Shown: positions 45,171 through 62,939 of the stretch, in pieces | How positions within the stretch are numbered: position 1 is the first letter of the stretch | How the letters are laid out: every line of letters starts with the position of its first letter | Origin: Streptomyces sp. ICC1 | GTDB taxonomy: Bacteria; Actinomycetota; Actinomycetes; Streptomycetales; Streptomycetaceae | NCBI RefSeq assembly: GCF_003287935.1 | Contig: NZ_CP030287.1 | Location: forward strand, 2,756,267 to 2,820,266 | Direction: 5' to 3' | Length of the DNA: 64,000 nt | Notes under the pieces: generated by a model | What the model was told of the DNA's origin: nothing | Seen by the model: only the letters and a program-made list of their open reading frames with translations | Databases searched by the model: none | Position numbers and translations under genes: made by a program

Positions 45171-46157
45171 TCAGTACCTCACCCTCGGGTCGATGACGGC
45201 GTACAGGAGGTCGACGGCGAGGTTCGCGACGACGATGAAGAAGGCGGCCAGCAGGGTGACCCCGAGGACCACGGGCTGGTCCGAGCTGACCAGGGCCCCG
45301 TAGAACAGCCGCCCGATGCCCGGGAGTCCGAAGATGGACTCGGTGATGACGGCTCCGGCGAGCAGGCTGCCGAGGTCCATGCCGAAGATGGTGAGGATCG
45401 GGGTCATCCCGGAGCGCAGTCCGTGCTTGACGACGACGGTGCGCTCGGGCATCCCCTTGGCGCGGGCGGTGCGGATGTACGGCTCGGCCATCGCCTCGAT
45501 CATCGAACCGCGGCTCTGCCGGGCGTACATGGCGGCGTAGAGCAGGGCCAGCGCCGTCCACGGGAGCAACAGGTTGCTCGCCCAGCCGAGCGGGTTGTCG
45601 GTGAAGGCCTGGTAGGTGGGGTAGGGCAGGATCCCGGCGACGCGGATGACCCCGTAGATGAGCATCACGGAGGTGAAGTAGACGGGCAGGGAGGCGGCGG
45701 CGACCGCGCCGACCATCAGCACCTTGTCGGTGGCGGTGTCCTTGCGCAGGGCGGCGGTGACGCCCGCGCCGAGGCCGAGGACCAGCCAGAGGGCGGCGGC
45801 GCCGACGGCGAGGGAGGCGGAGACCGGGAGGCGGTCCATCAGGAGGTCCCACACGGGCAGGGAGTTCTCGTACGAGTAGCCCAAGCACGGGAAGTCGCAC
45901 TGGACGGCGTACTGGCCGGTGCCCAGGGTGCGCCCGGTGAAGATGCCGGTGAGGAAGTCGAGGAACTGGCGCCACACGGGCTGGTCGAGGCCGAGGTACG
46001 CGCGCACGTCGGCCAGTCGCTCCGCGCTGCAGGTCTTTCCGCAGGCGGAGGCGGCCGGGTCGGAGGGGAGCACGTAGAAGATGAGGAAGGTGACGGCGGC
46101 GATGGCGAGCAGGACGCCCGCGAGGGCGAGCAGCCGGCGTGCGAGGTAGAGGATCAC
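45171..46157 (-). CDS. Peptide ABC transporter permease, DppB/OppB type
   Basis: 328 aa with six transmembrane helices; starts MILYLARRLLALAGVLLAIA and has the EAA loop near EPYIRTARAKGMPERTVVVK. A two-Cys extracellular loop (ASACGKTCSAERLADVR) follows helix 1. It forms the membrane channel with the next permease. ATG overlaps the DppC-type stop by four bases. Third gene of the operon that begins at 48852 and carries a regulon promoter. Confidence 0.92.
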   Translation of the reverse strand: MILYLARRLLALAGVLLAIAAVTFLIFYVLPSDPAASACGKTCSAERLADVRAYLGLDQPVWRQFLDFLTGIFTGRTLGTGQYAVQCDFPCLGYSYENSLPVWDLLMDRLPVSASLAVGAAALWLVLGLGAGVTAALRKDTATDKVLMVGAVAAASLPVYFTSVMLIYGVIRVAGILPYPTYQAFTDNPLGWASNLLLPWTALALLYAAMYARQSRGSMIEAMAEPYIRTARAKGMPERTVVVKHGLRSGMTPILTIFGMDLGSLLAGAVITESIFGLPGIGRLFYGALVSSDQPVVLGVTLLAAFFIVVANLAVDLLYAVIDPRVRY

Positions 46158-47101
46158 GTCCGCCCGCCCCTCGGGTCGAGGATGTCGCGCAGGGCGTCGC
46201 CGAGCAGGGTGAAGGCGAGCACCGCGAGGAAGAGGAAGAGGCTCGGGATGACGAAGTACATGGGGTCGGTCTCGTAGAAGGCCACGGACTCGGCGATCAT
46301 CTGGCCCCAGGAGGGGGTGGGCGGGCGCACGCCGACGCCGAGGTAGCTGAGGGCGGCCTCGGTGCTGATCATCCCGGGGATGAGCAGGGTGGTGTAGGCG
46401 ATGACGGGGCCCGAGACGCCCGGGAGGATCTCGCGGGTCAGGATCCGCCAGGCGCTCGCCCCGCCGACGCGGGCGGCGTCCACGTACTCGCGGTGTTTGA
46501 GGGAGAAGGTCTGGCCGCGCACGACGCGGGCGACGCCGGGCCAGCCGAAGACGCCGATGACGGCGGTCATGAGGACGATGCGGTTGACGTCCTTGGCCAC
46601 GGACAGCATCGCGATCATGAAGATGAGGCTGGGGAAGGACATGGTGAGGTCCATCAGGCGGGACAGGACGGCGTCGGTGCGGCCGCCGAAGTAGCCGGCG
46701 GCGATCCCGGCCGCGGTGCCGGCCACCACGACGATGGCGGTGGCGGCGAAGGCGATGAGGAGCGAGACCTGGGCGCCGTGGACGACGCGGGCGAACAGAT
46801 CGCGGCCGGTGACGGGTTCGACGCCGAGCCAGTGCTCGGGGCTGATCCCGCCGAAGGAGCCCAGGGGCTGGCCCCCGAGGTAGGGGTCGATGGCGGACTT
46901 GTCGAACTCGTCCGGGGACCAGCCGCCGAGTGCGCCCAGCCAGGGGGCGGTGGCGGCCATCAGGACGAAGAGCAGGACGACGCAGAGGCTGATGCGGACG
47001 GCGGGGCGGCGGCGGAGTTCCCGCCGGGCGAGCTGCCAGGGGCTGCTGCCCGGGGGGACCGGGGCGGCCGCCGCCGCGTCCGTGGACGTGGCGGCGGTCA
47101 T
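46154..47101 (-). CDS. Peptide ABC transporter permease, DppC/OppC type
   Basis: 315 aa with six helices. The N-terminal domain before helix 2 contains the OppC-type segment EHWLGVEPVTGRDLFARVVH, and the EAA loop is REYVDAARVGGASAWRILTR. C-terminal RDILDPRGGRT is typical. Sits two bases after the binding-protein gene and overlaps the next permease. Confidence 0.93.
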   Translation of the reverse strand: MTAATSTDAAAAAPVPPGSSPWQLARRELRRRPAVRISLCVVLLFVLMAATAPWLGALGGWSPDEFDKSAIDPYLGGQPLGSFGGISPEHWLGVEPVTGRDLFARVVHGAQVSLLIAFAATAIVVVAGTAAGIAAGYFGGRTDAVLSRLMDLTMSFPSLIFMIAMLSVAKDVNRIVLMTAVIGVFGWPGVARVVRGQTFSLKHREYVDAARVGGASAWRILTREILPGVSGPVIAYTTLLIPGMISTEAALSYLGVGVRPPTPSWGQMIAESVAFYETDPMYFVIPSLFLFLAVLAFTLLGDALRDILDPRGGRT

Positions 47102-47103
47102 GG

Positions 47104-48852
47104 TCAGCCCTGGCTCTGGCTCTTGGCGGGGTCCTTGAGGCCGATGGTGGCGTAGTCGAGCTGGCCGACCCAGACGGGGTGGCCGTAGGCCCCGGCGATG
47201 TTGGTGCCGACGAGCAGCGGCTTGCGCTCCAGCAGGACGGGGACGGCCGGGGACTTCTTCATGATCTCGGCGTCGAGGTCGATCCAGGCCTGGTTGGCCT
47301 GCTTGGCGTCGGCCATGGCGTTGATCTCGTCGATCCGCTTGATCGTCGCGTCGTCCTTGAACTGCGAGTAGTTGCCCGAGTTGCCCTTGACCTTGATGGT
47401 GCGGCCGTCGAAGACGAAGGGCAGGAAGGTGGACCCGGAGGGGTAGTCGGGGCACCAGCCGCTGAGCACGAGGTCGGGCGCGGTGGTGGTGTCGCCGATG
47501 ACGTCGTAGTACGCGCCCGGGTCGACGGTGTCGATGACGATCTCGACGCCCGCGCGGGCCAGGCCCTGCTGGACGGCCTCCGCCTTGCCCTTGTCGCCGG
47601 TGGAGACGGCGAGGGAGACCTTCAGGGTCTCCTTGCCGGCGGCCTTCAGGAGCTCCTTGGCCTTGGCCGGGTCGCCGGCCGGGGGAACCTTGAGGGTGTC
47701 GGCCTGCTTGCCGCCGGAGAGGGCCGGGGGCAAGTAGGCGGTGGCGATCTCGTTGAGGGCCGGGCCGCCGCCGGCGGTGACCACGGCCTCCTTGTCGAGG
47801 GCGTACTGCATGGCCTCGCGGACCTTGGGGTCGTCGAAGGGGGCGCGGGAGTTGTTCATCTGGAGCATCTCGGTACAGCCCTGCGACTCGGCCAGCAGCC
47901 GGGACTTGACCTCCGGCTTGGGCAGCACCTTGGGGGCGCTCTCGGGCCGCATGTCGGACCACTGGACGGCGGAGGCGTCGGCGCCCTCGCCGGCGATGAT
48001 CCGGTCGTCGATCTGGCCGCCCTTGAGGCCCATCACGACGACGAACTTGTCCGGGTAGGCCTTGCGGACGGTGTCGGTCTTGGCGTCCCAGTGCTCGTTG
48101 CGGACCAGGACGAGCTTCTTGTCGCGGTCGTACGACTCGATCTTGTACGGGCCGGAGGAGAACGGGCGGGCGTCGTACTGCGTGCCCTTCTCCTGGGCCT
48201 CGGGGACCGGAGCGAAGGTCGGCAGGGTCGCGGTCGCGGAGAACTCGGCGACGGGCCGCTTCAGTTCGAAGACGATCGTGCGGTCGTCGGGGGTCTTGAC
48301 GGAGTCGAGGTGCTTGCCCTGGAGCGGGCCCTTGTAGCCCTCGGTGCCGGCCAGGTACTGGGCCGCGTAGTCGGGGCCGCCGGTGAGGTCGGGGGCGAAG
48401 GAGCGCTCGACGTTGTACTTGATGTCCTGCGCCTTGATGGGCGATCCGTCCTCGTACTTCACGCCCTCCTTCAGGGTGAAGGTCCAGGTGCGGCCGCCGT
48501 TGGAGGAGGTGCCGAGGTCGGTGGCGAGGTCGGGGACGAGCTCGCTGCCGCCCTTGCCGGGCTCGGCCTTGAAGGTGACGAGGGTGCGGTAGAGGAGGCG
48601 GGTGCCGAAGTCCATCGTCGGCATGACCCAGTTGCGGGCGGGGTCGAGGTGGGCGAAGTCCTGGTTGGACAGGACGGTGAGAGTGCCGCCCTTCACGGGG
48701 GTCCCGCCGAGGATCTTCCCGTCGTTGGCGGAGGCGGGGTTGGAGGCACCCGCCCCGGCGGAGCCCTTCTTGGGGTCGGAGCAGCCGGAGGCACCGAGTG
48801 CGAGTGCGGCCACCAGAGTGGTGGCGAGGGCGAGTTGGGTGCGCTTGGTCAT
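47104..48852 (-). CDS. Peptide-binding lipoprotein of an ABC transporter (DppA/OppA, SBP family 5)
   Basis: 582 aa. Lipoprotein signal with the lipobox ALGASGC, then the family-5 binding fold: GGTLTVLSNQDFAHLDPARN, KYEDGSPIKAQDIKYNVERS, FAPDLTGGPDY, and a C-terminal GWCPDYPSGSTFLPFVFDG. It should capture oligopeptides outside the membrane; in this context proline/hydroxyproline-rich peptides from collagen are the suggested cargo. ATG 48852 is preferred over GTG 48858 because GGAG lies five bases before it. Transcribed from a promoter carrying paired regulon operators at 48885-48922. Confidence 0.92.
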   Translation of the reverse strand: MTKRTQLALATTLVAALALGASGCSDPKKGSAGAGASNPASANDGKILGGTPVKGGTLTVLSNQDFAHLDPARNWVMPTMDFGTRLLYRTLVTFKAEPGKGGSELVPDLATDLGTSSNGGRTWTFTLKEGVKYEDGSPIKAQDIKYNVERSFAPDLTGGPDYAAQYLAGTEGYKGPLQGKHLDSVKTPDDRTIVFELKRPVAEFSATATLPTFAPVPEAQEKGTQYDARPFSSGPYKIESYDRDKKLVLVRNEHWDAKTDTVRKAYPDKFVVVMGLKGGQIDDRIIAGEGADASAVQWSDMRPESAPKVLPKPEVKSRLLAESQGCTEMLQMNNSRAPFDDPKVREAMQYALDKEAVVTAGGGPALNEIATAYLPPALSGGKQADTLKVPPAGDPAKAKELLKAAGKETLKVSLAVSTGDKGKAEAVQQGLARAGVEIVIDTVDPGAYYDVIGDTTTAPDLVLSGWCPDYPSGSTFLPFVFDGRTIKVKGNSGNYSQFKDDATIKRIDEINAMADAKQANQAWIDLDAEIMKKSPAVPVLLERKPLLVGTNIAGAYGHPVWVGQLDYATIGLKDPAKSQSQG

Positions 48853-48884
48853 GGTCACTCCAGTGAAGGGCCGCGCTCTATGAT

Positions 48885-48922
48885 GTGACCGGTAACATAG
48901 TAATGTGAAATTGTACTGACAA
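48885..48922 (-). promoter_or_regulatory. dpp promoter with two operator-like sites
   Basis: On the minus strand TTGTCA (48922-48917) and TATGTT (48899-48894) are spaced by exactly 17 bp, a good sigma-70-type promoter for the binding-protein gene. Two 12-bp motifs sit on it: GTGAAATTGTAC (48905-48916, plus strand) inside the spacer and GTGACCGGTAAC (48885-48896) over the -10. They are 8 bp apart. The whole block recurs almost unchanged at 61476-61513. Confidence 0.75.
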
Positions 48923-48984
48923 GGGGTTGGAGCCGCCGTTATCCAGCCGTGTCCAAATCCGGCCGGGCGGTTGGCTGTTGGACC

Positions 48985-49020
48985 GCCCTCCTACACGCCC
49001 TCCTATGCGCCCTCCTATGC
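48985..49020 (+). repeat. Three 12-bp tandem repeats before the HEAT-repeat gene
   Basis: GCCCTCCTACAC followed by two identical GCCCTCCTATGC units. The last unit plus the next T gives TATGCT (49016-49021), a -10-like box six bases before ATG 49028. The repeat thus duplicates potential -10 boxes. Confidence 0.7.
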
Positions 49021-49027
49021 TGCCGCC

Positions 49028-50809
49028 ATGGATCCGATACGGCTGACCGGGCTCGGCCACCTCCCGGCGGTACTGCAAGGACTCGCACGGAACACCGCGC
49101 TGCCCGGGGAACTGGCGGCGCGGATGCTGCCCTACGGCATGGCACCGCTCCGGCTGGCGCTCCGCAAGGGGTTCGCTCCCGGCCCCGAGCTGTGCGAGGC
49201 GTTCCTTGCCTGCGGCGCGGCCGAGGCGCTCGCGCACGCCGAGGTGCTGCCGCCGGAGTTCGCCGCGCGGCTGGCGGCAGATCCGGACCCGGAGGTGCGG
49301 GCGGTGCGTGCGGGCCAGGAGCACGTTTCCGCCGGGCGGCAGGCCGTGTTCGCCGCCGACTCCGACGCGGCGGTACGGGCCGCCCTCGCGAAGCACCCGG
49401 ACCTCCCGGCAGGGCTCCTCGCCGTGCTGGCCGCCGACGGGGACCCCGGGGTACGAACGGCGGTCGCCTCGCGCGGGGCTGAGCTGCCGGACGGGCTCCT
49501 GCGGGGGCTGCTGACGGACACCGACCCGAAGGTGCGGGCGGCCGCGTGCAAGCACCGGCCGCCCCGCGATCTGCACGCGGCGCTGCTGGCCGACCCGGTC
49601 ACGCGCAGGGCCGTCGTACGCTTCCTCGACCTGGACGCGGACACGGCGGCCGCCCTGGCCGCCGACCCCGACGAGGACGTGCGCGCGGAGCTGGCCGTCC
49701 ACCCGGCACTGCCGTCACGGGTACGGAACGCTCTGGCCCGGGACGTGAGCCCCCACGTGCGGGGAAGGGTCTTCGTCCGCGCGGACACCCCGGCGGAGCT
49801 CCGGGACGAGATCCACGCCTGGCTGACCGCCGGAGCCGGGCGGGCGGAGGACTGGGCGAACGCGGAGGAGGACGACGTCTTCTGCGAGATCGCCCTCGTC
49901 TTCCTGGAGGCGGACTCCTACCCCTGGATCGAGGCCGACCCCGTCCCGTACGCCGCCTCCCCCCACCCCGGGCTGCGGCGCGCGGCGGCCCGCAGCGAGT
50001 TGCTGCCGGCCGGGCTGGTGCGCGGGATGCTCGGCGACGAGGATCCTGCGATCCGCACGATCGCCCTGGAGCGGACGCCCGGCGTCGATCTCGCCACCGC
50101 CGAGGACCTCGAACGGCGCCACGTCCCGTCGAAGTTCCGGTGCCGGCCCGCGGACTACTTCCCGTTCCCGCCCGAGGCGCTCCGCCGGTTCGCCTCCGAC
50201 CCCGACGCCCGCATGCGCGTACTCGCGCTGCGTGACCCCGACTTGCCCGCCGCGCTGCTGGAGCGGCTGGCGGCGGACGAGGACGACACCGTCCGGCGGG
50301 CCGTCGCCGAGGATTCCCGGACGGCGCCGGGCACGCTGCTGCGCCTGCTCGGCGACGACTCGGAGTCCGTCGCCGTGTCCGCCGCCACCTCTCCCGACCT
50401 GCCGGTGGAGGCCATGCGCGCGGTGCTCGACCTGGTCGCCCGTGACGACGCCGCCGAGCGCGGGAGCGCCGTTCTGCTGTGCGGGCCGTCCGCGTCGGGC
50501 CGGGACGCCCGCGCGCGGGATCTCGCGGGCCGCGGCTACTTCCGGTTGTCCCTGGACGAGGACGTCCGAGACCGGCTGGCGGGCGAGCCGGTCGCGGAGG
50601 GCACGGACGAGCACGACCGGCTGCGGGCGGACGTGCAGCGGGAGTTGTGGTGCGAGCTGGAGCAGCTCCTGGAGGACCGGGAACCGGTCGTGGTCGACCA
50701 CGGTGTCCTGAGCGGGACCACCGGGGAGCGCTACCGGGCCCTGTTCGAGAGCCACGGTTACCGCTGCGAGGTCGTCCACATCGAGGCGGACGCGACCCCG
50801 CAGGGGTGA
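49028..50809 (+). CDS. HEAT/leucine-rich-variant repeat protein with C-terminal kinase-like P-loop domain
   Basis: 593 aa. Residues 1-470 are about a dozen short helical repeats of the type LAADPDPEVRAVRA, LAKHPDLPAGLLAVLAADGD and LAADEDDTVRRAVAEDSRTA, i.e. an LRV/HEAT solenoid. From about 480 an AAA/zeta-toxin-like kinase domain follows (AVLLCGPSASGRDARARDLA, then YFRLSLDEDV and late EPVVVDHGVLSGTTGERYRA). The P-loop is degenerate: GPSASGRD in place of GxxxxGK(S/T). It may no longer hydrolyse ATP. No ribosome binding site; TATGCT six bases upstream suggests a leaderless start. Divergent from the dpp operon. Function unknown. Confidence 0.78.
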   Translation: MDPIRLTGLGHLPAVLQGLARNTALPGELAARMLPYGMAPLRLALRKGFAPGPELCEAFLACGAAEALAHAEVLPPEFAARLAADPDPEVRAVRAGQEHVSAGRQAVFAADSDAAVRAALAKHPDLPAGLLAVLAADGDPGVRTAVASRGAELPDGLLRGLLTDTDPKVRAAACKHRPPRDLHAALLADPVTRRAVVRFLDLDADTAAALAADPDEDVRAELAVHPALPSRVRNALARDVSPHVRGRVFVRADTPAELRDEIHAWLTAGAGRAEDWANAEEDDVFCEIALVFLEADSYPWIEADPVPYAASPHPGLRRAAARSELLPAGLVRGMLGDEDPAIRTIALERTPGVDLATAEDLERRHVPSKFRCRPADYFPFPPEALRRFASDPDARMRVLALRDPDLPAALLERLAADEDDTVRRAVAEDSRTAPGTLLRLLGDDSESVAVSAATSPDLPVEAMRAVLDLVARDDAAERGSAVLLCGPSASGRDARARDLAGRGYFRLSLDEDVRDRLAGEPVAEGTDEHDRLRADVQRELWCELEQLLEDREPVVVDHGVLSGTTGERYRALFESHGYRCEVVHIEADATPQG

Positions 50810-50854
50810 CCCGGGCCGGCCGGTGGCCGGGGCCGGGGCTACCCGGGCCGTTCC

Positions 50855-51043
50855 TAGTGCTGTGGCCGGGAAGGTTTGCCGGGTCGCGGTGTCCGGTGCG
50901 GTGCATCTCCCCCAGCTACCGCCGGGAGGGGCCCCCGGGCGGAGGACCACGCCTCGTACTGGACGTACCGGTGTGGTCCGACAACGCGGCGAGGTGCCGT
51001 GCCGGGCGCCGGGCCCCGGTGAACCCTTCCGGTCACAGCACTA
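50855..51043. mobile_element. MITE-like element, copy 2 (189 bp)
   Basis: Left end TAGTGCTGTGGCCGGGAAGG; right end, reverse complemented, TAGTGCTGTGACCGGAAGGG. TA flanks both sides. The interior (about 140 bp) is non-coding and has a short hairpin around CCCCCAGCTACCGCCGGGAGG-like bases near 50912-50935. The right end supplies the TAG stop of the GntR regulator gene. I recall sequences of this type as common intergenic repeats in Streptomyces; copy 1 at 19264-19329 is a shortened relative. Confidence 0.75.
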
Positions 51044-51751
51044 GAGGCCCGAGCCCAGGCCGCCCGGGATGCGGCCCACCGGTTCGTCGCGGCCCTGGGC
51101 CCACAGCGAGCGGACGTGGCCGAGGTGGCGGGTCATGCAGGCTTCGGCCGCCTCCGCGTCGCCGGTGAGCATCAGGTCGAGGAGCTCGATGTGCTCCTCG
51201 GCCGAGGAGACCAGCTTCCCGGCCTCGTCCAGGCCCGTCAGGCCGTACAGCCGGGAGCGCTTGCGCAGGTCGCCGACCGTTTCGACCAGGCGGTCGTTGC
51301 CCGAGAGGGCCAGCAGGCTCAGATGGAAGCGGCGGTCGGCCTCCAGGTACCCGATGAGGTTGTGCTCGCGGGCGCTGGTGACGATCTCCTCGGCGACGGG
51401 GCGCAGCGCCTCCAGCTGCTCCGGCGTCGCGATCTTGGTGATCCGGCCGATGGTCGGGACCTCGATCATCGTGCGCAGTTCGGTGTACTGGTCCAGATCG
51501 CGCTCGCTGACCTCCGTGATCCGGAAGCCCTTGTTGCGGACGGGCTCGACCAGGCCTTCACGGGCCAGGTCGAGCATGGCCTCGCGCACCGGGGTGGCCG
51601 AGACGCCGAGTTCGGCCGCGAGGCCGGGGGCGGAGTAGACGCTCCCCGGGCGCAGCTCACCCGCTATCAGGGCTGCCCGGAGCGCATGGCCGACCTGGTC
51701 GCGGAGCCGTTCCTGAGCCTTGATGAGGCTGTGCTGCTTCAGGTCACCCAT
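51041..51751 (-). CDS. GntR family regulator, FadR/FCD subfamily; proposed repressor of the collagen/hydroxyproline regulon
   Basis: 236 aa. Winged helix at residues 10-75 (LRDQVGHALRAALIAGELRP, YSAPGLAAELGVSATPVREA, GLVEPVRNKGFRITEVSERD); the FCD ligand domain follows with metal/ligand residues in YLEADRRFHLSLLALSGNDR and EEHIELLDLM...TRHLGHV (His ligands). Such regulators respond to small acids. Ribosome binding site GGAGGA. Its own promoter carries GTGACATTGTAC (51800-51811, minus strand), and the same motif stands before four neighbouring operons, so it is the natural candidate repressor; inducer perhaps hydroxyproline or pyrroline-4-hydroxy-2-carboxylate (inference). TAG stop comes from the MITE end. 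Confidence 0.88.
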   Translation of the reverse strand: MGDLKQHSLIKAQERLRDQVGHALRAALIAGELRPGSVYSAPGLAAELGVSATPVREAMLDLAREGLVEPVRNKGFRITEVSERDLDQYTELRTMIEVPTIGRITKIATPEQLEALRPVAEEIVTSAREHNLIGYLEADRRFHLSLLALSGNDRLVETVGDLRKRSRLYGLTGLDEAGKLVSSAEEHIELLDLMLTGDAEAAEACMTRHLGHVRSLWAQGRDEPVGRIPGGLGSGL

Positions 51752-51799
51752 TGCATTTCCTCCGAGACCGCTCACACCACTGGCGTGCGGAGGAACAGC

Positions 51800-51811
51800 G
51801 TACAATGTCAC
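51800..51811 (-). promoter_or_regulatory. Operator-like site upstream of the GntR gene
   Basis: GTGACATTGTAC on the minus strand, 49 bp before the GntR start, in the short gap after the imino acid reductase gene. Matches the motif GTGACATNNTAC seen at 55789 and 58913. Autoregulation inferred. Confidence 0.65.
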
Positions 51812-51825
51812 GTTGCGCTTGCTCC

Positions 51826-52770
51826 TCAGTGGACACCGCTCCCGGCGGCCTCGAACAGTGCGACCGCCACAGCGAGATCTTCCCAGGCCATGCCCACACT
51901 CTTGAAGAGCTGGGGACAACTTGCCGTCCCCGCCCCCGGCATCCGGCCGGCCACCAGATCCGCCAGGGTGCCGCTGATGTGGCCGGCGCCGATAGCCCCT
52001 TCCGCCTCCGGCACCAGCAGGTCGCCCGCCTCGCGCAGCGCCGCCGCACGCGACTCCACGTACACGGCCGCCCGCCGCACCAGCGCCGTGTCGACCTCGC
52101 GGGCGTCCGGCTCGTGCGAGCCGACCGCGACCACGGTGGCGCCCGGCGCGATCAGCCGCCCGTCGAAGAGCGGTTCGCGGGAGGTGGTGCAGCAGACCAC
52201 CAGGTCGGCGTCCGCGACTTCGGCCGCCACGCCCGGCCGGGCCGGGACCCCCAGACCCCGCGCGTGCTCCGCCAGCTTCCGCGCGCCCGCCGGGTCCCGG
52301 GCCACGACCACCACCTCCGCCAACTGCCGCAGCGCCAGCACCGCTTCGAGGTGACCGTACGCCTGCGGCCCCGACCCGAAGAGCAGCATCCGCAGCGGCC
52401 GCCCGGCCGGGAGCAGGTGGCGCAGCGCCAGCGCCGAGACCGCCGGGGTGCGCAGGGTGGTCAGCGCCGCCCCGTCGAGCAGGGCGAGGGGGCGCAGCGT
52501 GGGCCCGTCCAGGAGGAGGTAGGACCCGGTGATCCTGGGCAGGCCGAGCCCTGGGTTCCCCGGTGCCACTCCGGCGATCTTCACGCCCGCGTAGGCACCG
52601 GTGGCGGCCGGCATCAGCAGCAGCTCCCCGCCGCCCGGCACGGGCAGGGCGCTGCGCGGCGGGCAGGTCTCCGGGTCCAGCCCGGCCAGCAGGACGCCGG
52701 CCAGCGCGTCGGCGGCGGCGGCCGGGGTGAGCAGGCCGGCCGTCTCGGCGGCCGACAGCTGGGGGATCAC
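51826..52770 (-). CDS. Ornithine cyclodeaminase/mu-crystallin family protein, probable pyrroline-2-carboxylate reductase
   Basis: 314 aa NAD(P)-dependent enzyme. Visible: SALPVPGGGELLLMPAAT, YAGVKIAGVAPGNPGLGLPR, TAAVSALA-like TPAVSALALRHLLPAGR and Rossmann segment MLLFGSGPQAYGHLEAVLAL. In hydroxyproline gene clusters this family reduces 1-pyrroline-2-carboxylate to proline (trans-3-hydroxyproline or D-proline branch). GTG overlaps the stop of the proline-racemase-family gene upstream (GTGA), so they are co-translated. True ornithine cyclodeaminase activity is less likely in this setting. Confidence 0.85.
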   Translation of the reverse strand: MIPQLSAAETAGLLTPAAAADALAGVLLAGLDPETCPPRSALPVPGGGELLLMPAATGAYAGVKIAGVAPGNPGLGLPRITGSYLLLDGPTLRPLALLDGAALTTLRTPAVSALALRHLLPAGRPLRMLLFGSGPQAYGHLEAVLALRQLAEVVVVARDPAGARKLAEHARGLGVPARPGVAAEVADADLVVCCTTSREPLFDGRLIAPGATVVAVGSHEPDAREVDTALVRRAAVYVESRAAALREAGDLLVPEAEGAIGAGHISGTLADLVAGRMPGAGTASCPQLFKSVGMAWEDLAVAVALFEAAGSGVH

Positions 52771-54802: not shown

Positions 54803-54833
54803 GGGGTCCCCCCTGGCTGGCGGTTCGGCGTGG

Positions 54834-55763: not shown

Positions 55764-55788
55764 GAGTGAGCTCTCCCTAGAGTGGTGT

Positions 55789-55800
55789 GTGACATTTTAC
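55789..55800 (+). promoter_or_regulatory. Operator-like site over the promoter of the DapA-like operon
   Basis: GTGACATTTTAC on the plus strand; on the minus strand it contains TAAAAT, which with TTGTGG 18 bp upstream makes a plausible promoter for the operon starting at 55763. A repressor here would cover the -10 box. Confidence 0.7.
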
Positions 55801-55842
55801 TAGTGGGTACAAGGTGGCCACAAGACTCGCGGCACACCCGAA

Positions 55843-57324
55843 TCAGTGGTCCGCGGGAGGAAGTTCCGCGAGGTGGCCCAGCGGGACCGGGCAGGACAGC
55901 GGTCTGCGGTCGGGCGCGGGGTCGTGTCCGGCCAGGGCCGCGACGGCCGGACCGCACATCCGGCCCTGGCACCAGCCCATCCCGGCCCGGGTGAGCAGTT
56001 TGACCGTACGAGCGTCCCGCGCCCCCAGGTCCCGCACGGCCTCCCGGATCCGGCCGGCCGGGACCTCCTCGCAGCGGCACACGTCGGTGTCCTCGCGCAG
56101 CCAGCCGGTCCAGCCGGGCCCCGGGCGGTGGGCGGCGGCCATCGCGGCGGCGAAGGCGCGCAGCCTCGTACGGGTCCGGGCGAGCCGGGCCGGGACGGGT
56201 CGGCCGGCGAGGGCGTGGGCGGCGATCTCCCCTTCGGCCAGGGCCAGTTGGGCGCCGCCGACGCCGCCGGTCTCCCCGGCGGACCAGATCCCGGGGACGG
56301 AGGTGCGGCCGTCGGGGTCGAGCTCCAGGGCGACGGCCCCGTCGGGGCCGGTGGCCGTGGCGCAGCCCAGTCCGGTCGCCAGTTCCAGCTGGGGCACGAG
56401 CCCGTGGCCCACCGCGAGGGCGTCGCACGGGATGCGGCGGCCCGTGCCGGGCACCGGGCGCCAGTCGCGGTCGAGGCGGGCCACGGTGACGGCCTCGACG
56501 CGGCCGGTGCCGTGGGCCTCGGTGACGGCGTGCCGGGTCAGGAAGCGGATGCCGTGGCGGAGCAGGGCGCTGCCGTACGTGGCCGCCTCGGCGAGCTTGG
56601 CGGGGTTGCGCAGCAGGACCGGGGTGTGGGCGGCGTAGCCGGTGTAGGCGGCGGCTTCGACCACGGCGGGCACGCGGGCCCCGGCGGCGCCGAGCGAGCC
56701 GGCCACGGCGAGCAGCAGGGGCCCGCTCCCGGCGACGACGACGCGCTTGCCCGGGAGCACGAGCCCGCTCTTGAGCATGGCCTGGGCCCCGCCGGCTCCG
56801 ACGACCCCGGGGAGGGTCCAGCCGGGGAAGGGCAGTTGGCGCTCGTACGCGCCGGTGGCGAGCAGGACGGCGCGGGCCCGCACCCGCGCGGGGCCCTCCT
56901 CCGGTCCGGCGACGGCGTGCAGGATCCACCCGGGGGCCGCCGCCCCGTCGGGGACGACGGTCCAGACGTGGTGGAAGGGGAGGTGGGTGATCCGCCCGGC
57001 CGCCTCGTGGGCGCGCAGGGCGGCTTCGCGCGGGGCGAAGGCGCTCCAGCCGTGGTGCAGGGCTTCGGGGCGGGCCGCGCCGAGGGCGGGCGCCGGGTGG
57101 CGGTAGTACTGCCCGCCGGGGCGTTCCCCCGCGTCCAGGAGGGTGACGCGCAGCCCGAGTCCGGCGGCCGTGACGGCGGCGGCGAGGCCGGCGGGGCCGG
57201 CGCCGACGACGGCGAGGTCGCACGGCCCGCCGTCCGCCCCGGCGGGGGCGGTGCCGGTGCCGGGTCCGGAGTCGGGTCCGGTGTCGGCGCGGCGCGCGTC
57301 GCGGTCAGACGGCGAGGTCGCCAT
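55843..57324 (-). CDS. FAD/NAD(P)-binding oxidoreductase subunit with BFD-like [2Fe-2S] domain (D-hydroxyproline dehydrogenase, HcnB-like)
   Basis: 493 aa. FAD motif LAVVGAGPAGLAAAVTAAGL, second dinucleotide motif KRVVVAGSGPLLLAVAGSLG, and a C-terminal BFD-type cluster region DVCRCEEVPAGRIREAV followed by GMGWCQGRMCGP (four Cys). This is the alpha-type subunit of HcnABC-like dehydrogenases, here with the [2Fe-2S] protein and an FAD oxidase-type subunit. Together they should oxidise cis-4-hydroxy-D-proline to the pyrroline and pass electrons to the respiratory chain. N-terminal 30 residues are disordered. It overlaps the preceding [2Fe-2S] gene by 20 bp. Confidence 0.87.
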   Translation of the reverse strand: MATSPSDRDARRADTGPDSGPGTGTAPAGADGGPCDLAVVGAGPAGLAAAVTAAGLGLRVTLLDAGERPGGQYYRHPAPALGAARPEALHHGWSAFAPREAALRAHEAAGRITHLPFHHVWTVVPDGAAAPGWILHAVAGPEEGPARVRARAVLLATGAYERQLPFPGWTLPGVVGAGGAQAMLKSGLVLPGKRVVVAGSGPLLLAVAGSLGAAGARVPAVVEAAAYTGYAAHTPVLLRNPAKLAEAATYGSALLRHGIRFLTRHAVTEAHGTGRVEAVTVARLDRDWRPVPGTGRRIPCDALAVGHGLVPQLELATGLGCATATGPDGAVALELDPDGRTSVPGIWSAGETGGVGGAQLALAEGEIAAHALAGRPVPARLARTRTRLRAFAAAMAAAHRPGPGWTGWLREDTDVCRCEEVPAGRIREAVRDLGARDARTVKLLTRAGMGWCQGRMCGPAVAALAGHDPAPDRRPLSCPVPLGHLAELPPADH

Positions 57325-57640
57325 GGCCCGTTCCTTCCTGAGTGGTGACGCGGTCCCCGGGCCGGGCGGGCACCAGGCACGCCCGCTGGTTCGGGCGGCC
57401 GTTGACGGTGACGAGGCAGTCGTAGCAGCTCCCGATCCCGCAGAACGCTCCGCGCGGGGCGCCGGTCTCCCGGGTGGTCCGCCAGGCGAGGATGCCGGCG
57501 GACCAGAGGACGGCGGCGATGCTCTGACCGGCCTGCGCGGACAGCTCGCGGCCGTCGAAGCGGAGGCTCCACGTTGCCGTGGGGGTGCCGCCGACCAGGT
57601 CGCGGGGCGACCTTCGCCGGCCCCTCGTCGCTTCGCTCAT
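57305..57640 (-). CDS. (2Fe-2S)-binding subunit (HcnA-like) of the D-hydroxyproline dehydrogenase
   Basis: 111 aa ferredoxin-like protein with the cluster motif FCGIGSCYDCLVTVNG and a later Cys in RACLVPARPGD, giving C-x4-C-x2-C...C. The fold begins SLRFDGRELSAQAGQSIAAV. It ferries electrons between the two flavin subunits. Ribosome binding site GAGGAG; the 3' end overlaps the next subunit's start. Confidence 0.88.
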   Translation of the reverse strand: MSEATRGRRRSPRDLVGGTPTATWSLRFDGRELSAQAGQSIAAVLWSAGILAWRTTRETGAPRGAFCGIGSCYDCLVTVNGRPNQRACLVPARPGDRVTTQEGTGHGDLAV

Positions 57641-57676
57641 CGCTTCCGTTCTCCTCGGTGCTCGGTTGCTCGGTTC

Positions 57677-57746
57677 CCCGGGCTCTGCCCGGACCCGTCC
57701 TGAGGCTCCGCCCCGGACCCCGCGCCTCAAACGCCGGCGGGGCTGA
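57677..57746. repeat. REP-like intergenic repeat, copy 2
   Basis: Starts CCCGGGCTCTGCCCGGACCC and ends CGCGCCTCAAACGCCGGCG followed by GGGCTGA, as copy 1 at 10564-10669. It covers the last seven codons and stop of the FAD-oxidoreductase gene (KLSPAGV), so the repeat has become the gene's 3' end. Confidence 0.65.
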
Positions 57747-58908
57747 GTTTGCCCGGCCCGGAATCGCCCGGGTCGAAGCGGGACGGGGCGAAGGGGGTCG
57801 GGTCCAGCGGCGGGGCCGTGGCCGTCAGGGCCGCCGTGATCAGGGAGCCCGTGGCCGGGGCCAGGCCGATGCCCGCCCCCTCGTGGCCGCACGCGTGCAG
57901 CAGCCCCGGCACCCGGGGGTCCTGGCCGATCGCCGGGAGGTGGTCCGGCAGGTACGGGCGGAAGCCGTGGTAGGTGCGGAGCACCTTGACGGACGACAGC
58001 ACCGGGAACAGCGCCGCCGCCTGCGCCGCGAGCCGCCGCAGCGCTTCCGTCGACAGCGAGCGGTCGAAGCCGACCCGCTCGCGCGTCGCCCCGATCAGCA
58101 CCGGGCCCGCCGGGGTGCCTTCGACGACCGCCGATGACTGCAGCGCCGCCGATCCGCTCGCCACGTCCGCGATGTAGTCCGCCGCGTAGACCTTGTGCCG
58201 CACCACCCTCGGCAGCGGCTCCGTGACCAGGACGAACCCCCGGCGCGGCAGCACCGGCAGCGAGGCTCCCGCCAGGGCGGCCACCGCGCCGCCCCAGGTC
58301 CCGGCGGCGTTGACCACCGCCGGGGCCAAGAGGTCCCGGCGGGCCGTGCGGACGCCCCGGACCGATCCCGAGGGGTCGAGCAGCAGGTCCGTCACCTCCT
58401 CGCCGAGGTACGTCCGCGCCCCCGAGGCCGCCAGCAGCCGGGCCGCCGCCTGGGCCGGCTGGACCTGCGCGTCCTGCGGGTAGTGGAAGCCGCCCGCCAG
58501 GCCCGGGGCCAGGTGGGGTTCCAGCTCGCGCAGTTCCTCCGGCCCGACCTCCACCGCGTCGACCCCGGCGGCGCGCTGGCCTTGCGCGAAGCCCCGCAGC
58601 CCCTTCACCGTGTCCCCGTCGGCCGCGACGACCAGACCGCCCTTGGCCTCGTACTCGATCTCCTCGGGGAGCTCGGGCGCCAGTTCGCGCCACAGGCGTG
58701 CCGACAGCAGGGCGAGGTCCAGCTCCGGGCCCGCCTCCTTGTCGGAGACGAGCAGGTTGCCCTCGCCGGCGCCGGTCGTACCGCCCGCGACCGGGCCGCG
58801 GTCGACGACGGCCACGTGCAGTCCGGCGCGCGCCGCGTAGTACGCGCACGCGGCGCCGACGACGCCCGCGCCGATGATCACGACGTCCGGGGAGGTTCTC
58901 TTGGGCAC
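57727..58908 (-). CDS. FAD-dependent D-amino-acid oxidase-type subunit (HcnC-like) of the D-hydroxyproline dehydrogenase
   Basis: 393 aa DAO-family flavoprotein: VVIIGAGVVGAACAYYAARA at the N-terminus, GGTTGAGEGNLLVSDKEAGP (FAD/substrate region), and C-terminal LLHACGHEGAGIGLAPATGS. It should carry the active site that oxidises cis-4-hydroxy-D-proline. First gene of a three-gene operon with the [2Fe-2S] and BFD subunits (86-bp gap, then overlap). GTG 58908 begins four bases after the operator-like site at 58913-58924, so transcription may start at or near the start codon. The last residues come from a REP-like repeat. Confidence 0.88.
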   Translation of the reverse strand: MPKRTSPDVVIIGAGVVGAACAYYAARAGLHVAVVDRGPVAGGTTGAGEGNLLVSDKEAGPELDLALLSARLWRELAPELPEEIEYEAKGGLVVAADGDTVKGLRGFAQGQRAAGVDAVEVGPEELRELEPHLAPGLAGGFHYPQDAQVQPAQAAARLLAASGARTYLGEEVTDLLLDPSGSVRGVRTARRDLLAPAVVNAAGTWGGAVAALAGASLPVLPRRGFVLVTEPLPRVVRHKVYAADYIADVASGSAALQSSAVVEGTPAGPVLIGATRERVGFDRSLSTEALRRLAAQAAALFPVLSSVKVLRTYHGFRPYLPDHLPAIGQDPRVPGLLHACGHEGAGIGLAPATGSLITAALTATAPPLDPTPFAPSRFDPGDSGPGKLSPAGV

Positions 58909-58912
58909 GGCA

Positions 58913-58924
58913 GTAATATGTCAC
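58913..58924 (-). promoter_or_regulatory. Operator-like site at the start of the dehydrogenase operon
   Basis: GTGACATATTAC on the minus strand, ending four bases before GTG 58908. The embedded TATTAC could be the -10 of a near-leaderless transcript. Same motif as 51800 and 55789. Confidence 0.65.
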
Positions 58925-58987
58925 ATTCTTTATCGAGGGAACAGGGAGTGGAACGGGCCGGCCCCCGCCGGGACCGGCCCGGACCGG

Positions 58988-61384
58988 TCAGCTGCGCAGC
59001 GGGCCCTCGCAGGAGTAACTCGAGGTGCCCGCGACGTGGTTGGTCCAGATCTCCACGGGCCCGAAGGAGCAGTTCATGTCGGCCAGGTTGTTCGAGGCCG
59101 CGCCCGCCCGGTCGAGGAGGAAGTAGTCGACCGTCTCGGACATGTCCTTGAAGTTCTGGTCGTCGCTGCGCCACTTCGTCAGGTTCGCGGTGATCTTGCC
59201 CGTACAGGTGAACCGGCGCTTGCCGGGGTCGCCGTTCTCCACGCAGTCCGGATTGCTGTACGTGGCCGTCGCGAAGGCCGACTTCACGTCCGCGAGCGCC
59301 GCGTCGCGCAGCAGGCCGTTCGGGGTGAAGGAGGTGTTCGGCACGTACAGCTGGTCCAGCTTGGCGATCTGGGCGTCGAGGAAGCGGTCGTAGTCGCGCT
59401 GGAGGTAGGAGTCCTGGCCCAGCCGGGTGCGCCAGGCGTCGTAGCCCGCCGGGTCGTCTGCGCGCAGGAGGCCGTACATCTCCTTGAGCACCGAGGGGTG
59501 CTCGGTCCACAGGAACTCGAAGAAGGTGCCGGCGTAGTTGTAGAAGCGGAAGCCGTCGCCGTCGTAGGTGGCGTGCAGCAGCTGGTCCACCGTCATGCGC
59601 GGGCCGCCGCCGGCCGTGTCGTTGACGATGCCCCGGACCAGGGACTTCCGCACGGCGATGCCGTTGTCGCGGGTCGCGCCGTCGAAGAACTCGGCGGTGC
59701 CCTCGTCCATGGCGGTCGTGCGGTCGTTCTGGTACCAGGGGCCCTGGCCGAAGGAGCCGGGGACGGCGAAGCGGCCGTTGAGGTAGTGCGTGTACTCGTG
59801 GCGGAAGAGCTCCTCGAGGGTGAGCGAGGAGTCCTGCGGGACGCGGCGCTGGTAGGTGTAGAAGGTGGCGCCGTTCTCGATGTAGATGCCGCCGTTGTTG
59901 GTGCCGTAGCCGGTCAGGACCGGGTGGTAGCCCACGTAGTCGGCGCGCGAGGCGTAGAGCACGATGTTCAGCGTGGCGTTGGCGTCTCCGGCGAGCGGCT
60001 GTTCGGTGCCCAGCACGCGGTGGAACTGCGTCTTGACCTGCTTGCTCGCGTAGTAGAGCTGGTCGACGGTGGCCCGGTCGAGGCCGGTGCGGACCTTGAT
60101 GGCGCCGTTGTCGTACGTGAAGGTGTTCGGGAAGAGCTGCCTCTCGATGTCCTCCTTGCACACCCCGTACGGCTTGCACGCCTGGTAGTAGTTGAGCCAG
60201 GAGACGACCTTCGCCCACTGCTCGCTGCCGTCGCCGAAGGTGGACCTGACCGGGCCCAGCAGCGCGCCGAGGTCGGCGGTGATCGCGTCCCGCAGGCTCG
60301 GGATCTGGCCGAAGCGGCCGTACTCGGCCAGCGCGTCGCGCGCCACCCAGGCGTTGGTGGCGCCCTTGAGGTGGGCGTACGTCGCGAAGTTCTTGAAGAC
60401 GGCGCGGTACGCGGGGTCGCCGGCCGCGGCCGCCCGGAAGGCGGCGTCCTGGTTGTTGACGCCGAGGTAGTTGACGGAGAGGGCGGCGAGCGCCGCGCCC
60501 GCCCAGGCGGTGTCCAGGTGCGTCGCGGGGTGCGACGGGTCCATGGTGGCCAGGACCTTCGTGATCAGGCCGAGCTGGTGCTGGCGCAGGCCGGGGGCGC
60601 TGGCGGCGTACAGGGCCTCGCGCAGGGTGCGGGCGTTGGAGGCGGTGGCGTCGAAGGTGCGGGCGGCGGAGCCGAAGTCGGCGACGGCCCGACGCATCGC
60701 GTCCACGGTCGGGGCGTCGGTGACGTCGATCTCGGTGCGGGAGAAGTCGTGGTAGGCCACCGCGTGCAGGTAGGTGAACATCTCCTCCAGGTGCGAGGAG
60801 TTACGGCCGTCGTGGGCGGCGGCGAGGGTGGATATGCGGCGCGAGACGGCCTGGACGTGGGCGTCGGACATGACGGGGGCCAGGCGCGCGTCCCACGTCC
60901 ATATGAGGCCCGAGAGGCAGCCGCCCGAGCCTGCGGTGACGGCCGGGTCGGCGAGGAAGTCGGCGAACTGCTCGGGAGAGAGGTTCGTGATCCCGTCGAG
61001 GGTGCAGGGGACGCCCGAGGCGAGTCCCTGGGCGGCGGCGGCGAGCTTGCCGCTCTTCGCGGTGCTCGCGGCGGCGGGCTTGGTCACGGGGCCCGGGACC
61101 TGCCCGTCGGTGACGGCCTGGCCGCCGGGGGCCGGAGCGGGGGCCGGGTCCGTCTTCGGCGCGTCGGCGAGGTGGTCGACCTCGTCGAAGGGGTTGGCGC
61201 CCTGGGCTCCCGCGGCGAAGGTGTCGGGCGCGGTGGCGCCCGGGGCCTGCGCCGCGGCGCCCGCGGCCTTCGCGCCGGCGCCGGTCTCGGCGGCCTGGGT
61301 CACGGCCTGGCCGGCGGTGGCGAGGAGGGTGACCGCGACGGCGGCGGAGAGGAGCGACGTACGCACGGCTCTGTGCTGGAACAC
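58988..61384 (-). CDS. Secreted M9 family metallopeptidase (collagenase)
   Basis: 798 aa. Signal peptide (FQHRAVRTSLLSAAVAVTLL to about residue 30), an Ala/Pro/Gly linker, the N-terminal activator-type helical domain (LSPEQFADFLADPAVTAGSG, LEEMFTYLHAVAYHDFSRTE) and the peptidase domain with zinc motif HEYTHYLNGRF (His529, Glu530, His533) followed by DEGTAEFFDGATR with the third ligand Glu. These features define bacterial collagenases, which cut triple-helical collagen or gelatin. No C-terminal collagen-binding repeats; the end resembles a small beta domain with Cys pairs. GTG 61384 has AGGAG upstream. Its promoter (61476-61513) is nearly identical to the dpp promoter. Confidence 0.93.
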   Translation of the reverse strand: MFQHRAVRTSLLSAAVAVTLLATAGQAVTQAAETGAGAKAAGAAAQAPGATAPDTFAAGAQGANPFDEVDHLADAPKTDPAPAPAPGGQAVTDGQVPGPVTKPAAASTAKSGKLAAAAQGLASGVPCTLDGITNLSPEQFADFLADPAVTAGSGGCLSGLIWTWDARLAPVMSDAHVQAVSRRISTLAAAHDGRNSSHLEEMFTYLHAVAYHDFSRTEIDVTDAPTVDAMRRAVADFGSAARTFDATASNARTLREALYAASAPGLRQHQLGLITKVLATMDPSHPATHLDTAWAGAALAALSVNYLGVNNQDAAFRAAAAGDPAYRAVFKNFATYAHLKGATNAWVARDALAEYGRFGQIPSLRDAITADLGALLGPVRSTFGDGSEQWAKVVSWLNYYQACKPYGVCKEDIERQLFPNTFTYDNGAIKVRTGLDRATVDQLYYASKQVKTQFHRVLGTEQPLAGDANATLNIVLYASRADYVGYHPVLTGYGTNNGGIYIENGATFYTYQRRVPQDSSLTLEELFRHEYTHYLNGRFAVPGSFGQGPWYQNDRTTAMDEGTAEFFDGATRDNGIAVRKSLVRGIVNDTAGGGPRMTVDQLLHATYDGDGFRFYNYAGTFFEFLWTEHPSVLKEMYGLLRADDPAGYDAWRTRLGQDSYLQRDYDRFLDAQIAKLDQLYVPNTSFTPNGLLRDAALADVKSAFATATYSNPDCVENGDPGKRRFTCTGKITANLTKWRSDDQNFKDMSETVDYFLLDRAGAASNNLADMNCSFGPVEIWTNHVAGTSSYSCEGPLRS

Positions 61385-61475
61385 CAAGAACTCCTGCTGG
61401 GAGGGGAGGTGGGGGAAGTGGTGCGCGAACTGCCCTGCTTCACGCGGCGTTTGACGGGGATTAACGAACCGCTGT

Positions 61476-61513
61476 GTGACCTGTAACATAGTAATGTGAA
61501 ATTGCACTGACAA
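61476..61513 (-). promoter_or_regulatory. Collagenase promoter with two operator-like sites, shared with pepP-type gene
   Basis: On the minus strand TTGTCA (61513-61508) and TATGTT (61490-61485) are 17 bp apart. GTGAAATTGCAC (61496-61507, plus strand) lies in the spacer and GTGACCTGTAAC (61476-61487) over the -10, 8 bp apart. The block matches 48885-48922 at nearly every position. It lies between the divergent collagenase (start 61384) and Xaa-Pro aminopeptidase (start 61557). Confidence 0.75.
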
Positions 61514-61556
61514 GACCCGTGCGCCCACCAGTTCGCATCTTCTTGAGGGAGCTCCC

Positions 61557-62939
61557 GTGACCGACCCCCACTCCCGCCCCACCACCGGGCTCAACATCGG
61601 CAGCCATGACCTGCCGGTATCACCCGAGTTGTCCCGCTTCATGGCGTCCGACTGGGCCGCCTCGCCCCTCCCGGAGACCGACCGCGTCCCCGCGCACGCG
61701 CTCACCCCGGCCCGCCGCGCCCGCCTCTCGGCCCGCTTCCCCGGCGAGCGCCTGATCGTCCGGGCCGGTGAACTGCGGGCCCGCACCCACGACTGCGACC
61801 ACCGCTTCCGCCCGGACACCGCCTACGCCTGGCTGACCGGGCTCACCGGCGAGGACCAGGTGGGCCACGTCCTGGTCATGGAACCCTCGGGGCCGCACGG
61901 CCACGAGGCCGTCCTGTACCTGCGCCCCCGCTCCTCGCGCGGGGACGGCACCGAGGAGTTCTACCGGGACCGCCGCTACGGGGAGTTCTGGGTCGGCCGG
62001 CGCCCCGACCTCGCGGAGGCCGAGCGGCTCAGCGGCATCCGCTGCGCGCACCTGGACTCGCTCGGCTCCCCGTCGGGGCGCGAGGCCGCCACGGACGCGG
62101 ACCTCGGCGCCGCGCTCTCCGAGCTGCGCCTGGTCAAGGACGCGTGGGAGGTGGGCCAGCTACAGCTGGCCGTCGACCACACCGTCACCGGCTTCGAGGA
62201 CGTCGTACGGGACCTGCCGCGCGCGCTGGCGCACCCGCGCGGGGAGCGGTGGATCGAGGGGGTCTTCAACCGCCGCGCCCGGGCGGAGGGCAACGGCACC
62301 GGCTACGACACGATCGCGGCGTCGGGCGCGCACGCGTGCGTCCTGCACTGGATCCGCAACGACGGGCGGCTGCGCGGCGACGAGCTGCTCCTGCTGGACG
62401 CGGGCGTGGAGACCGACAGCCTCTACACGGCCGACATCACCCGCACCCTCCCGCTGTCGGGGCGGTTCTCACCGGTCCAGCGCCAGGTGTACGAACTGGT
62501 GCTGGCCGCGCAGGACGCGGGCATGGCGGCGCTGCGGCCGGGCGCCAGCTTCCGCGACTTCCACCGGGCCGGGATGCGCGTGATCGCCGAGGGGCTCGCG
62601 GAGTGGGGCGTGCTCAAGCACGCGGAGGGCGACCTGCACCGGCGCTACACCCTGTGCAGCAGCGGGCACATGCTGGGCCTGGACGTGCACGACTGCGCGC
62701 AGGCGCGGGCGGACGCCTACCTGGACGGGATCCTGGAGGAGGGCCAGGTGCTCACGGTGGAGCCGGGACTCTACCTCCAGCCCGACGACGAGACCCTGCC
62801 GCCGGAGCTGCGCGGCATCGGCGTGCGCATCGAGGACGACCTGGTCATCACGGCCGAGGGCGCCCGGCTGATGTCGGGCGCCCTGCCGCGGACGGTGGCG
62901 GGTATCGAGGAGTGGATGGGGAACCTGCTGGAGGGCTGA
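61557..62939 (+). CDS. Aminopeptidase P family (Xaa-Pro aminopeptidase, M24)
   Basis: 460 aa. Removes an N-terminal residue when proline (or hydroxyproline) is second, which other peptidases cannot do. The N-terminal creatinase-like domain is followed by the pita-bread domain with the metal ligands: Asp in LLLLDAGVETDSLYTADITR (two Asp), His in CSSGHMLGLDVHD, Glu in VLTVEPGLY and Glu in GVRIEDDLVI. All five are present. GTG start with GAGGGAG upstream. Divergent from the collagenase across a common operator region; it should finish digestion of imported collagen peptides. Confidence 0.94.
   Translation: MTDPHSRPTTGLNIGSHDLPVSPELSRFMASDWAASPLPETDRVPAHALTPARRARLSARFPGERLIVRAGELRARTHDCDHRFRPDTAYAWLTGLTGEDQVGHVLVMEPSGPHGHEAVLYLRPRSSRGDGTEEFYRDRRYGEFWVGRRPDLAEAERLSGIRCAHLDSLGSPSGREAATDADLGAALSELRLVKDAWEVGQLQLAVDHTVTGFEDVVRDLPRALAHPRGERWIEGVFNRRARAEGNGTGYDTIAASGAHACVLHWIRNDGRLRGDELLLLDAGVETDSLYTADITRTLPLSGRFSPVQRQVYELVLAAQDAGMAALRPGASFRDFHRAGMRVIAEGLAEWGVLKHAEGDLHRRYTLCSSGHMLGLDVHDCAQARADAYLDGILEEGQVLTVEPGLYLQPDDETLPPELRGIGVRIEDDLVITAEGARLMSGALPRTVAGIEEWMGNLLEG

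Follow-up and report, generated by a model that had tools for sequence, protein, structure and literature searches.

A predicted expanded HypR regulon of collagenase, peptide importer and hydroxyproline genes in Streptomyces sp. ICC1

Described hydroxyproline regulons and the locus of Streptomyces sp. ICC1

The closest described counterpart of the collagen utilization locus considered here, which lies in a 64,000-nt window (the whole stretch of DNA analysed) of the 9.03-Mb genome of Streptomyces sp. ICC1, is the HypR regulon of Streptomyces coelicolor A3(2). In the latter organism, the GntR/FadR-type repressor HypR (SCO6294) binds TACAATGTCAC, as reported from one-hybrid, DNase I footprint, electrophoretic mobility shift, reporter and deletion experiments, and represses SCO6289-6293, the collagenase SCO5912 and SCO5281 (kgd) (Kotowska et al., 2019, PMC6608401). 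Its site adjoins the SCO6289 transcription start, and L-hydroxyproline (L-Hyp) induces transcription from the hypR and SCO6289 promoters (PMC6608401). The ICC1 locus shares with this system a regulator beside the hydroxyproline operon, the order in which the dehydrogenase subunit, deaminase and epimerase genes follow one another, the operator TACAATGTCAC and the inclusion of an M9 collagenase. Contrastingly, the S. coelicolor collagenase is unlinked and carries PKD and PPC domains, SCO6295 next to hypR is an MdlB-type ATP-binding cassette (ABC) protein, and a peptide importer, an Xaa-Pro peptidase, an OCD reductase and a second racemase are absent from the HypR target tables in the accessible part of that report (PMC6608401). 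The original prediction was aware of no described system in which one operator joins collagen breakdown, uptake and the catabolism of hydroxyproline; for collagen breakdown and hydroxyproline catabolism, the S. coelicolor regulon contradicts this view (PMC6608401).

Colwellia metagenome-assembled genome BB5 and its relatives contain a collagen utilization gene cluster of approximately 21 kb (PMC7883544). Like the ICC1 locus, this cluster encodes an M9 collagenase, uptake functions, an aminopeptidase, hydroxyproline epimerase, D-hydroxyproline dehydrogenase, a deaminase and an OCD-type reductase, and the physical clustering of collagen-to-hydroxyproline genes is therefore not new as such. Colwellia differs in being a gammaproteobacterium, in having a major facilitator superfamily transporter and a TonB receptor where ICC1 has an Opp-type importer, and in the regulators named, which are PutR and stringent starvation proteins; a common operator or HypR is not mentioned in the accessible text (PMC7883544). 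L-hydroxyproline catabolism is also controlled by the GntR/FadR-like HypR of Sinorhizobium meliloti and by the AraC-type activator LhpR of Pseudomonas aeruginosa, neither of which has a collagenase in its regulon according to the portion of PMC6608401 that covers them. No extended HypR regulon was found among the openly licensed papers listed, judged from titles and the openings of abstracts, and two later papers name HypR, with no mention of collagen in the passages available. What is new, as far as these searches show, is the predicted control by HypR of an importer, perhaps of an Xaa-Pro peptidase, and of a second collagenase class, together with the tandem operator and the breadth of its distribution.

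Positions 44900-64000 of the window were read, and 14 genes were compared with Pfam, ten of them also with NCBIfam. The region contains, in order, OppB, OppC and SBP_bac_5 lipoprotein genes (- strand), a HEAT/AAA_33 protein gene (+) and a GntR/FCD regulator gene (-), followed by genes for an OCD reductase, two proline-racemase-family enzymes, a DapA-like deaminase, three dehydrogenase subunits and an M9 collagenase (all -) and for an Xaa-Pro aminopeptidase (+). The domains originally listed for these genes agree with Pfam, although the second proline-racemase-family gene (52767-53801) had been overlooked. We consider the region very probably to be an expanded HypR regulon, and comparison of related sequences gives strong support for one operator common to the genes for collagenase, importer and hydroxyproline breakdown.

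A shared operator in the window, the genome and related bacteria

Seven copies of a 12-bp motif had been predicted for the locus, and all were read at their coordinates:

48885-48896, + strand: motif copy GTGACCGGTAAC
48905-48916, + strand: motif copy GTGAAATTGTAC
51800-51811, - strand: motif copy GTGACATTGTAC, HypR operator in the hypR promoter, reading TACAATGTCAC on the opposite strand
55789-55800, + strand: motif copy GTGACATTTTAC, operator within the hydroxyproline gene string, directly upstream of the DapA-like gene
58913-58924, - strand: motif copy GTGACATATTAC, operator of the hydroxyproline operon, immediately before the start codon
61476-61487, + strand: motif copy GTGACCTGTAAC
61496-61507, + strand: motif copy GTGAAATTGCAC

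The TACAATGTCAC sequence at 51801-51811 (+ strand) is letter for letter the footprint sequence of S. coelicolor HypR. The exact form GTGANATNNTAC occurs four times in the window, compared to 0.03 expected from shuffles, and seven times in the whole genome, where the pattern read backwards as a control has no match. The remaining window copies are the site at 61496, one change from the exact form, and variants GTGACC(G/T)GTAAC. One of the seven exact genomic copies is located in 23S rRNA (locus L007); GTGAAATAGTAC matches that recur about six times in several other genomes are identical to this copy and were taken as the same. Another exact copy outside the regulon, at genome position 8650221 (L006/L286), is strong (28.8 bits) and has no clear target gene. 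With one mismatch allowed, 208 genomic matches were obtained versus 74 in reversed controls. The originally proposed pattern with two mismatches shows no excess over chance (15 observed, 13.6 expected), and hence only the tight form of the motif is informative.

The Crp-like half-site TGTGA resembles the motif, which contains a TGTGA core, and the genome also has palindromes such as TGTGAAATATCAC at other places (L277, L280), for which no link to collagen genes was seen. The motif might belong to another, wider regulator rather than mark one hydroxyproline-specific regulon. Such an origin is very improbable given that the relaxed pattern has just 18 matches (17 places) in 9.03 Mb, seven of them at regulon promoters that include all three collagenases, and that six of the seven places with matrix sites of at least 26 bits are regulon genes. 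The motif is also the DNase I footprint sequence of S. coelicolor HypR (PMC6608401), and M9 genes follow HypR across genomes, as detailed below. The original prediction had named a motif scattered evenly over the genome as an outcome that would speak against it, and the whole-genome scan did not show such a distribution.

Conservation of the operator was evaluated in 121 genomes of the genus, in which HypR relatives (E up to 1e-60) were searched, regions around HypR and M9 were collected and genes were mapped in them by tblastn; HypR regions were taken for 60 of 106 HypR places, and some more fall inside other regions collected. A 16-column matrix was trained only on the promoters of hypR and of the first dehydrogenase gene and tested, at a site threshold of 11 bits, on the other gene families of the same species. 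The M9 search gave 91 places over the cut-off, and the upstream windows of 84 entered the test; of the other seven, two were not retrieved (G029:C37, G045:C92), four ran off a contig end (G047, G049, G113, G115) and one (L251 in G005) was excluded because its match started too far into the query sequence. Identical windows, windows cut at the locus end and non-M9 matches with less than 40% identity or starting after residue 60 were dropped, the last exclusion not being applied to the 2Fe-2S subunit.

Sites of at least 11 bits precede 83 of 84 M9 genes (35/35 of the divergent class represented in the window, 5/5 and 43/44 of the typical classes), 24/24 peptide-binding lipoprotein genes and 32/37 Xaa-Pro peptidase genes. 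Among inner operon genes sites are rare (OppB 0/24, OppC 0/24, two dehydrogenase subunits 1/50 and 1/52, epimerase 2/53, second racemase 0/17, OCD reductase 1/19), and their frequency in 939 control windows is about 0.5%. The genus sequences are related and these counts are thus not independent, whereas the contrast between first and inner genes is drawn within the same genomes. With column-permuted matrices, the mean share of windows with a site was 0.1-3.1% across seven families; individual permutations went as high as 63% (M9), 88% (lipoprotein), 60% (Xaa-Pro peptidase) and 100% (five similar windows of one typical M9 class) because related promoters resemble each other, and inner genes and control windows are the stronger controls. 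Where no divergent regulon gene was found within 900 bp, the site is retained in 61/61 M9 and 12/12 lipoprotein windows. In the training families, the operator is present in 67/73 upstream windows of hypR and in 52/54 of the first dehydrogenase gene, with a single orientation in 52/52, a position 15-37 bp before the projected start in 49/52 and at -19 in 38/52. The site at 55789, present where it had been placed, lies inside the hydroxyproline gene string, and 35/56 upstream windows of the DapA-like gene in the genus contain an operator.

The two double sites of the window are parts of one 39-bp element present in two copies:

48885-48923, - strand: importer composite promoter-operator, with a tandem pair of HypR-type sites 20 bp apart
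61476-61514, - strand: collagenase composite promoter-operator, near-identical to 48885-48923, which also precedes the divergent Xaa-Pro peptidase gene

The 29-bp core of this element, with up to three mismatches, matches only these two places in the genome; it is present in 22/24 lipoprotein and 32/35 divergent-class M9 upstream windows and in none of 73 hypR and 44 typical-class M9 windows. At the level of at least 80% of windows, the conserved consensus reads TTG.CAGT.CAATTTCACATTACTATGTTAC..(G)TCACA, in identical orientation in 24/24 lipoprotein and 35/35 divergent-class M9 windows. At the importer, putative -35 (TTGTCA, 48917-48922) and -10 (TATGTT, 48894-48899) boxes separated by a 17-bp spacer plausibly constitute a sigma-70-type promoter, with one HypR-type site inside the spacer and the second across and past the -10 box.

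The regulator and the collagenase of the window are encoded as follows:

51041-51751, - strand: HypR orthologue (Pfam GntR winged helix-turn-helix and FCD), adjoining the hydroxyproline operon
58988-61387, - strand: secreted M9 collagenase of the divergent class (Pfam Peptidase_M9, E 5e-49, and M9_N)

In an alignment of nine HypR sequences, which did not include SCO6294, the recognition helix SATPVREAML is almost invariant, and the FCD Asp and His residues, which we take to have a metal role, are conserved in 9/9. The translated collagenase, whose Peptidase_M9 match is over the cut-off, contains the zinc site HEYTH and the downstream Glu (DEGTAEF) and is predicted to be collagenolytic. It shares 24-26% identity (tblastn) with the typical Streptomyces class, and its nearest solved structures are the clostridial ColT, ColH and ColG. 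At a distance of 4.4 Mb the genome encodes another M9 collagenase, with an exact motif copy at 7242114 (- strand) about 70 bp before its assumed start (GTGAAATTTTAC, 28.3 bits), and a third whose start is about 4 kb from this second one. Among five collagenases of the 7242114 type, GTGAAATTTTAC is present in a single orientation at four, and at three of these it takes the form of an inverted repeat, GTGAAAT-N5-ATGTCAC.

Possession of M9 collagenases appears nested in possession of HypR. Among the 121 genus genomes, a HypR relative is present in 97 and an M9 domain in 72, with M9 in 71 of the 97 HypR-positive and one of the 24 HypR-negative genomes (Fisher p 3e-10; the genomes are related). The sole HypR-negative genome with M9 is G005, where no operator was found within 8 kb around the collagenase gene. 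Beyond the main sample, 39 M9 loci, a subset of the M9 places found, were scanned. Outside the genus, a site of at least 11 bits is located upstream of M9 in 23/23 loci of the family's other genera and 3/3 out-of-family loci, 1.08-1.41 kb before the M9 domain, which is the expected promoter position, and all 26 genomes possess a HypR relative. The site was also identified at 12/13 additional same-genus loci, at one of which (L309) the match above 11 bits is hypR's own site and the collagenase-proximal site scores 10.9. Seven of 39 downstream controls matched at 11 bits or more, five of which appear to lie at the place of the hydroxyproline-operon operator in that gene order. HypR was found in 29/30 M9-positive and 0/5 M9-negative genomes, only five of the latter kind having been examined.

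Importer, Xaa-Pro peptidase and a model of regulation

The peptide importer and the Xaa-Pro peptidase are encoded at the two ends of the locus:

45171-46157, - strand: oligopeptide ABC permease of the OppB/DppB type (Pfam BPD_transp_1_N and BPD_transp_1), following the lipoprotein and OppC genes in relatives
46154-47101, - strand: oligopeptide ABC permease of the OppC/DppC type (Pfam BPD_transp_1 and OppC_N)
47104-48852, - strand: peptide-binding lipoprotein (Pfam SBP_bac_5, E 2e-70; LGASGC lipobox by eye)
61557-62939, + strand: cytosolic Xaa-Pro aminopeptidase (M24B; Pfam AMP_N and Peptidase_M24; no signal peptide by eye)

HypR might control only hydroxyproline genes and collagenases, with the importer and Xaa-Pro peptidase genes carrying a promoter copy or a shared divergent region that has no functional role in their control. 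In S. coelicolor, several promoters on HypR-bound fragments (SCO5911, SCO5315, SCO7176, SCO7177 and SCO7273) are reported to be inactive or unaltered in a hypR mutant (PMC6608401), and 30/32 Xaa-Pro peptidase operators lie in intergenic regions common to another, divergent regulon gene. We consider this explanation unlikely; the operator is kept at 24/24 lipoprotein promoters despite identities down to 65-70% (once 40%) and altered gene order, and 12 of these genes have no divergent regulon neighbour found. The originally proposed single operator finds strong comparative genomic support for collagenase, importer and hydroxyproline breakdown; for the Xaa-Pro peptidase support is weaker because so many of its sites are shared.

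Several observations weigh against an expanded HypR regulon. The third collagenase of the genome, at 7246900, has a weak site (15.1 bits), scores of 14 bits or more being attained by 37 of the 44 members of its class; an M9 gene of the genus in a HypR-positive genome (L150/G023) has no site in 8 kb, and another M9 locus (L327) has none in the 1.5 kb scanned. Where no divergent regulon neighbour is present, the Xaa-Pro peptidase gene has its own site in just 2/6 cases (L086, L105). The peptide specificity of the importer is putative, and no ABC ATPase domain was detected in the seven open reading frames tested beside it; the lipoprotein and two permeases (45171-48852) may borrow an ATPase. The operator of hypR itself, present in 24/30 HypR loci of relatives, is lacking in the other six, including all three out-of-family genomes, and autoregulation is thus less conserved than the link to the collagenase. 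For Streptomyces sp. ICC1, binding and regulation by HypR are predictions from sequence, and so are the effector and the repression of the importer and Xaa-Pro peptidase genes. L-Hyp, D-Hyp and proline leave HypR binding in vitro unchanged, and the unresponsive S. coelicolor promoters mentioned above are bound by HypR (PMC6608401).

In the model we propose for the expanded HypR regulon, HypR would sit on GTGACATNNTAC-like operators at five places, and the paired sites of the collagenase and importer promoters would put it over the -35/-10 spacer and over the -10 region; all units would be held low when collagen is absent. Basal collagenase would release peptides rich in proline and hydroxyproline, which the lipoprotein and permeases could take up and from which the Xaa-Pro peptidase might liberate amino acids. 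Hydroxyproline would then be epimerised and oxidised to alpha-ketoglutarate semialdehyde, and a downstream metabolite might relieve HypR repression, resulting in positive feedback.

On a broader scale, it seems somewhat more probable than otherwise that M9 collagenase is regulated across Actinomycetes as the outermost enzyme of hydroxyproline catabolism. HypR operators on two collagenase classes at many loci and the nesting of collagenase possession within HypR possession are consistent with this proposal, in which the regulon of one clade would have grown to a near-complete collagen-to-alpha-ketoglutarate-semialdehyde unit including peptide import. The repression of a collagenase by HypR, a single-species observation in S. 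coelicolor, would thereby become a rule testable across the genus and beyond, concerning how bacteria sense an insoluble extracellular protein, apparently via an intracellular product of an amino acid characteristic of that protein. Furthermore, a likely peptide importer and peptidase missing from the published HypR regulon can be named, and the second collagenase class might be of use.

Hydroxyproline enzymes and neighbouring sequences

The hydroxyproline gene string encodes the following proteins:

51826-52770, - strand: OCD/mu-crystallin family protein (Pfam PF02423)
52767-53801, - strand: second proline-racemase-family enzyme (Pfam PF05544), next to the OCD-family reductase
53798-54802, - strand: 4-hydroxyproline epimerase (Pfam PF05544; motifs MCGHG and SPCGTG)
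54834-55763, - strand: DapA-like deaminase (Pfam DHDPS), in the gene-order position of SCO6292
55843-57324, - strand: D-hydroxyproline dehydrogenase FAD/BFD [2Fe-2S] subunit (Pfam Pyr_redox_2 and Fer2_BFD)
57305-57640, - strand: D-hydroxyproline dehydrogenase small 2Fe-2S subunit (Pfam Fer2_4)
57727-58908, - strand: D-hydroxyproline dehydrogenase DAO subunit (Pfam DAO), the first gene of the string

The best NCBIfam match of the epimerase is 4-hydroxyproline epimerase (354.9 bits, slightly under the cut-off of 376), and that of the OCD-family protein is Delta1-pyrroline-2-carboxylate reductase (218.8 bits, under the cut-off of 322), which is its likely function. In trans-3-hydroxy-L-proline dehydratases, Thr replaces the second catalytic Cys. 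The second proline-racemase-family enzyme retains both catalytic Cys residues (ACGHG and SPCGSG), in contrast to the aligned chains 6r76 and 7qpo, which have Thr (SPTG), and scores 257 bits with the NCBIfam trans-3-hydroxyproline dehydratase model versus a cut-off of 540. Its second Cys rules out a canonical trans-3-hydroxyproline dehydratase and argues for a racemase or epimerase, which together with the OCD reductase may serve to recover proline or a different isomer of hydroxyproline. None of the 14 genes was seen to encode an alpha-ketoglutarate semialdehyde dehydrogenase.

Elsewhere in the genome, the palindrome CATGTGAAATATCACATG is present in two copies at positions 3012394 (L277) and 6038438 (L280) and is probably the site of another regulator; sites L284/L285 (22.6 bits) have no link to collagen genes seen. 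An open frame at 63031-63807 (- strand) of the window has no Pfam match, and its part at 63031-63340 contains short repeats from which, by eye, a stretch rich in Trp and Asn would be translated on the - strand. The importer is separated from hypR by the HEAT-repeat protein gene at 48971-50809 (+ strand), which encodes a C-terminal AAA_33 (kinase-like) domain, is unrelated to the regulon genes and has tblastn matches in just 2/60 regions of relatives.

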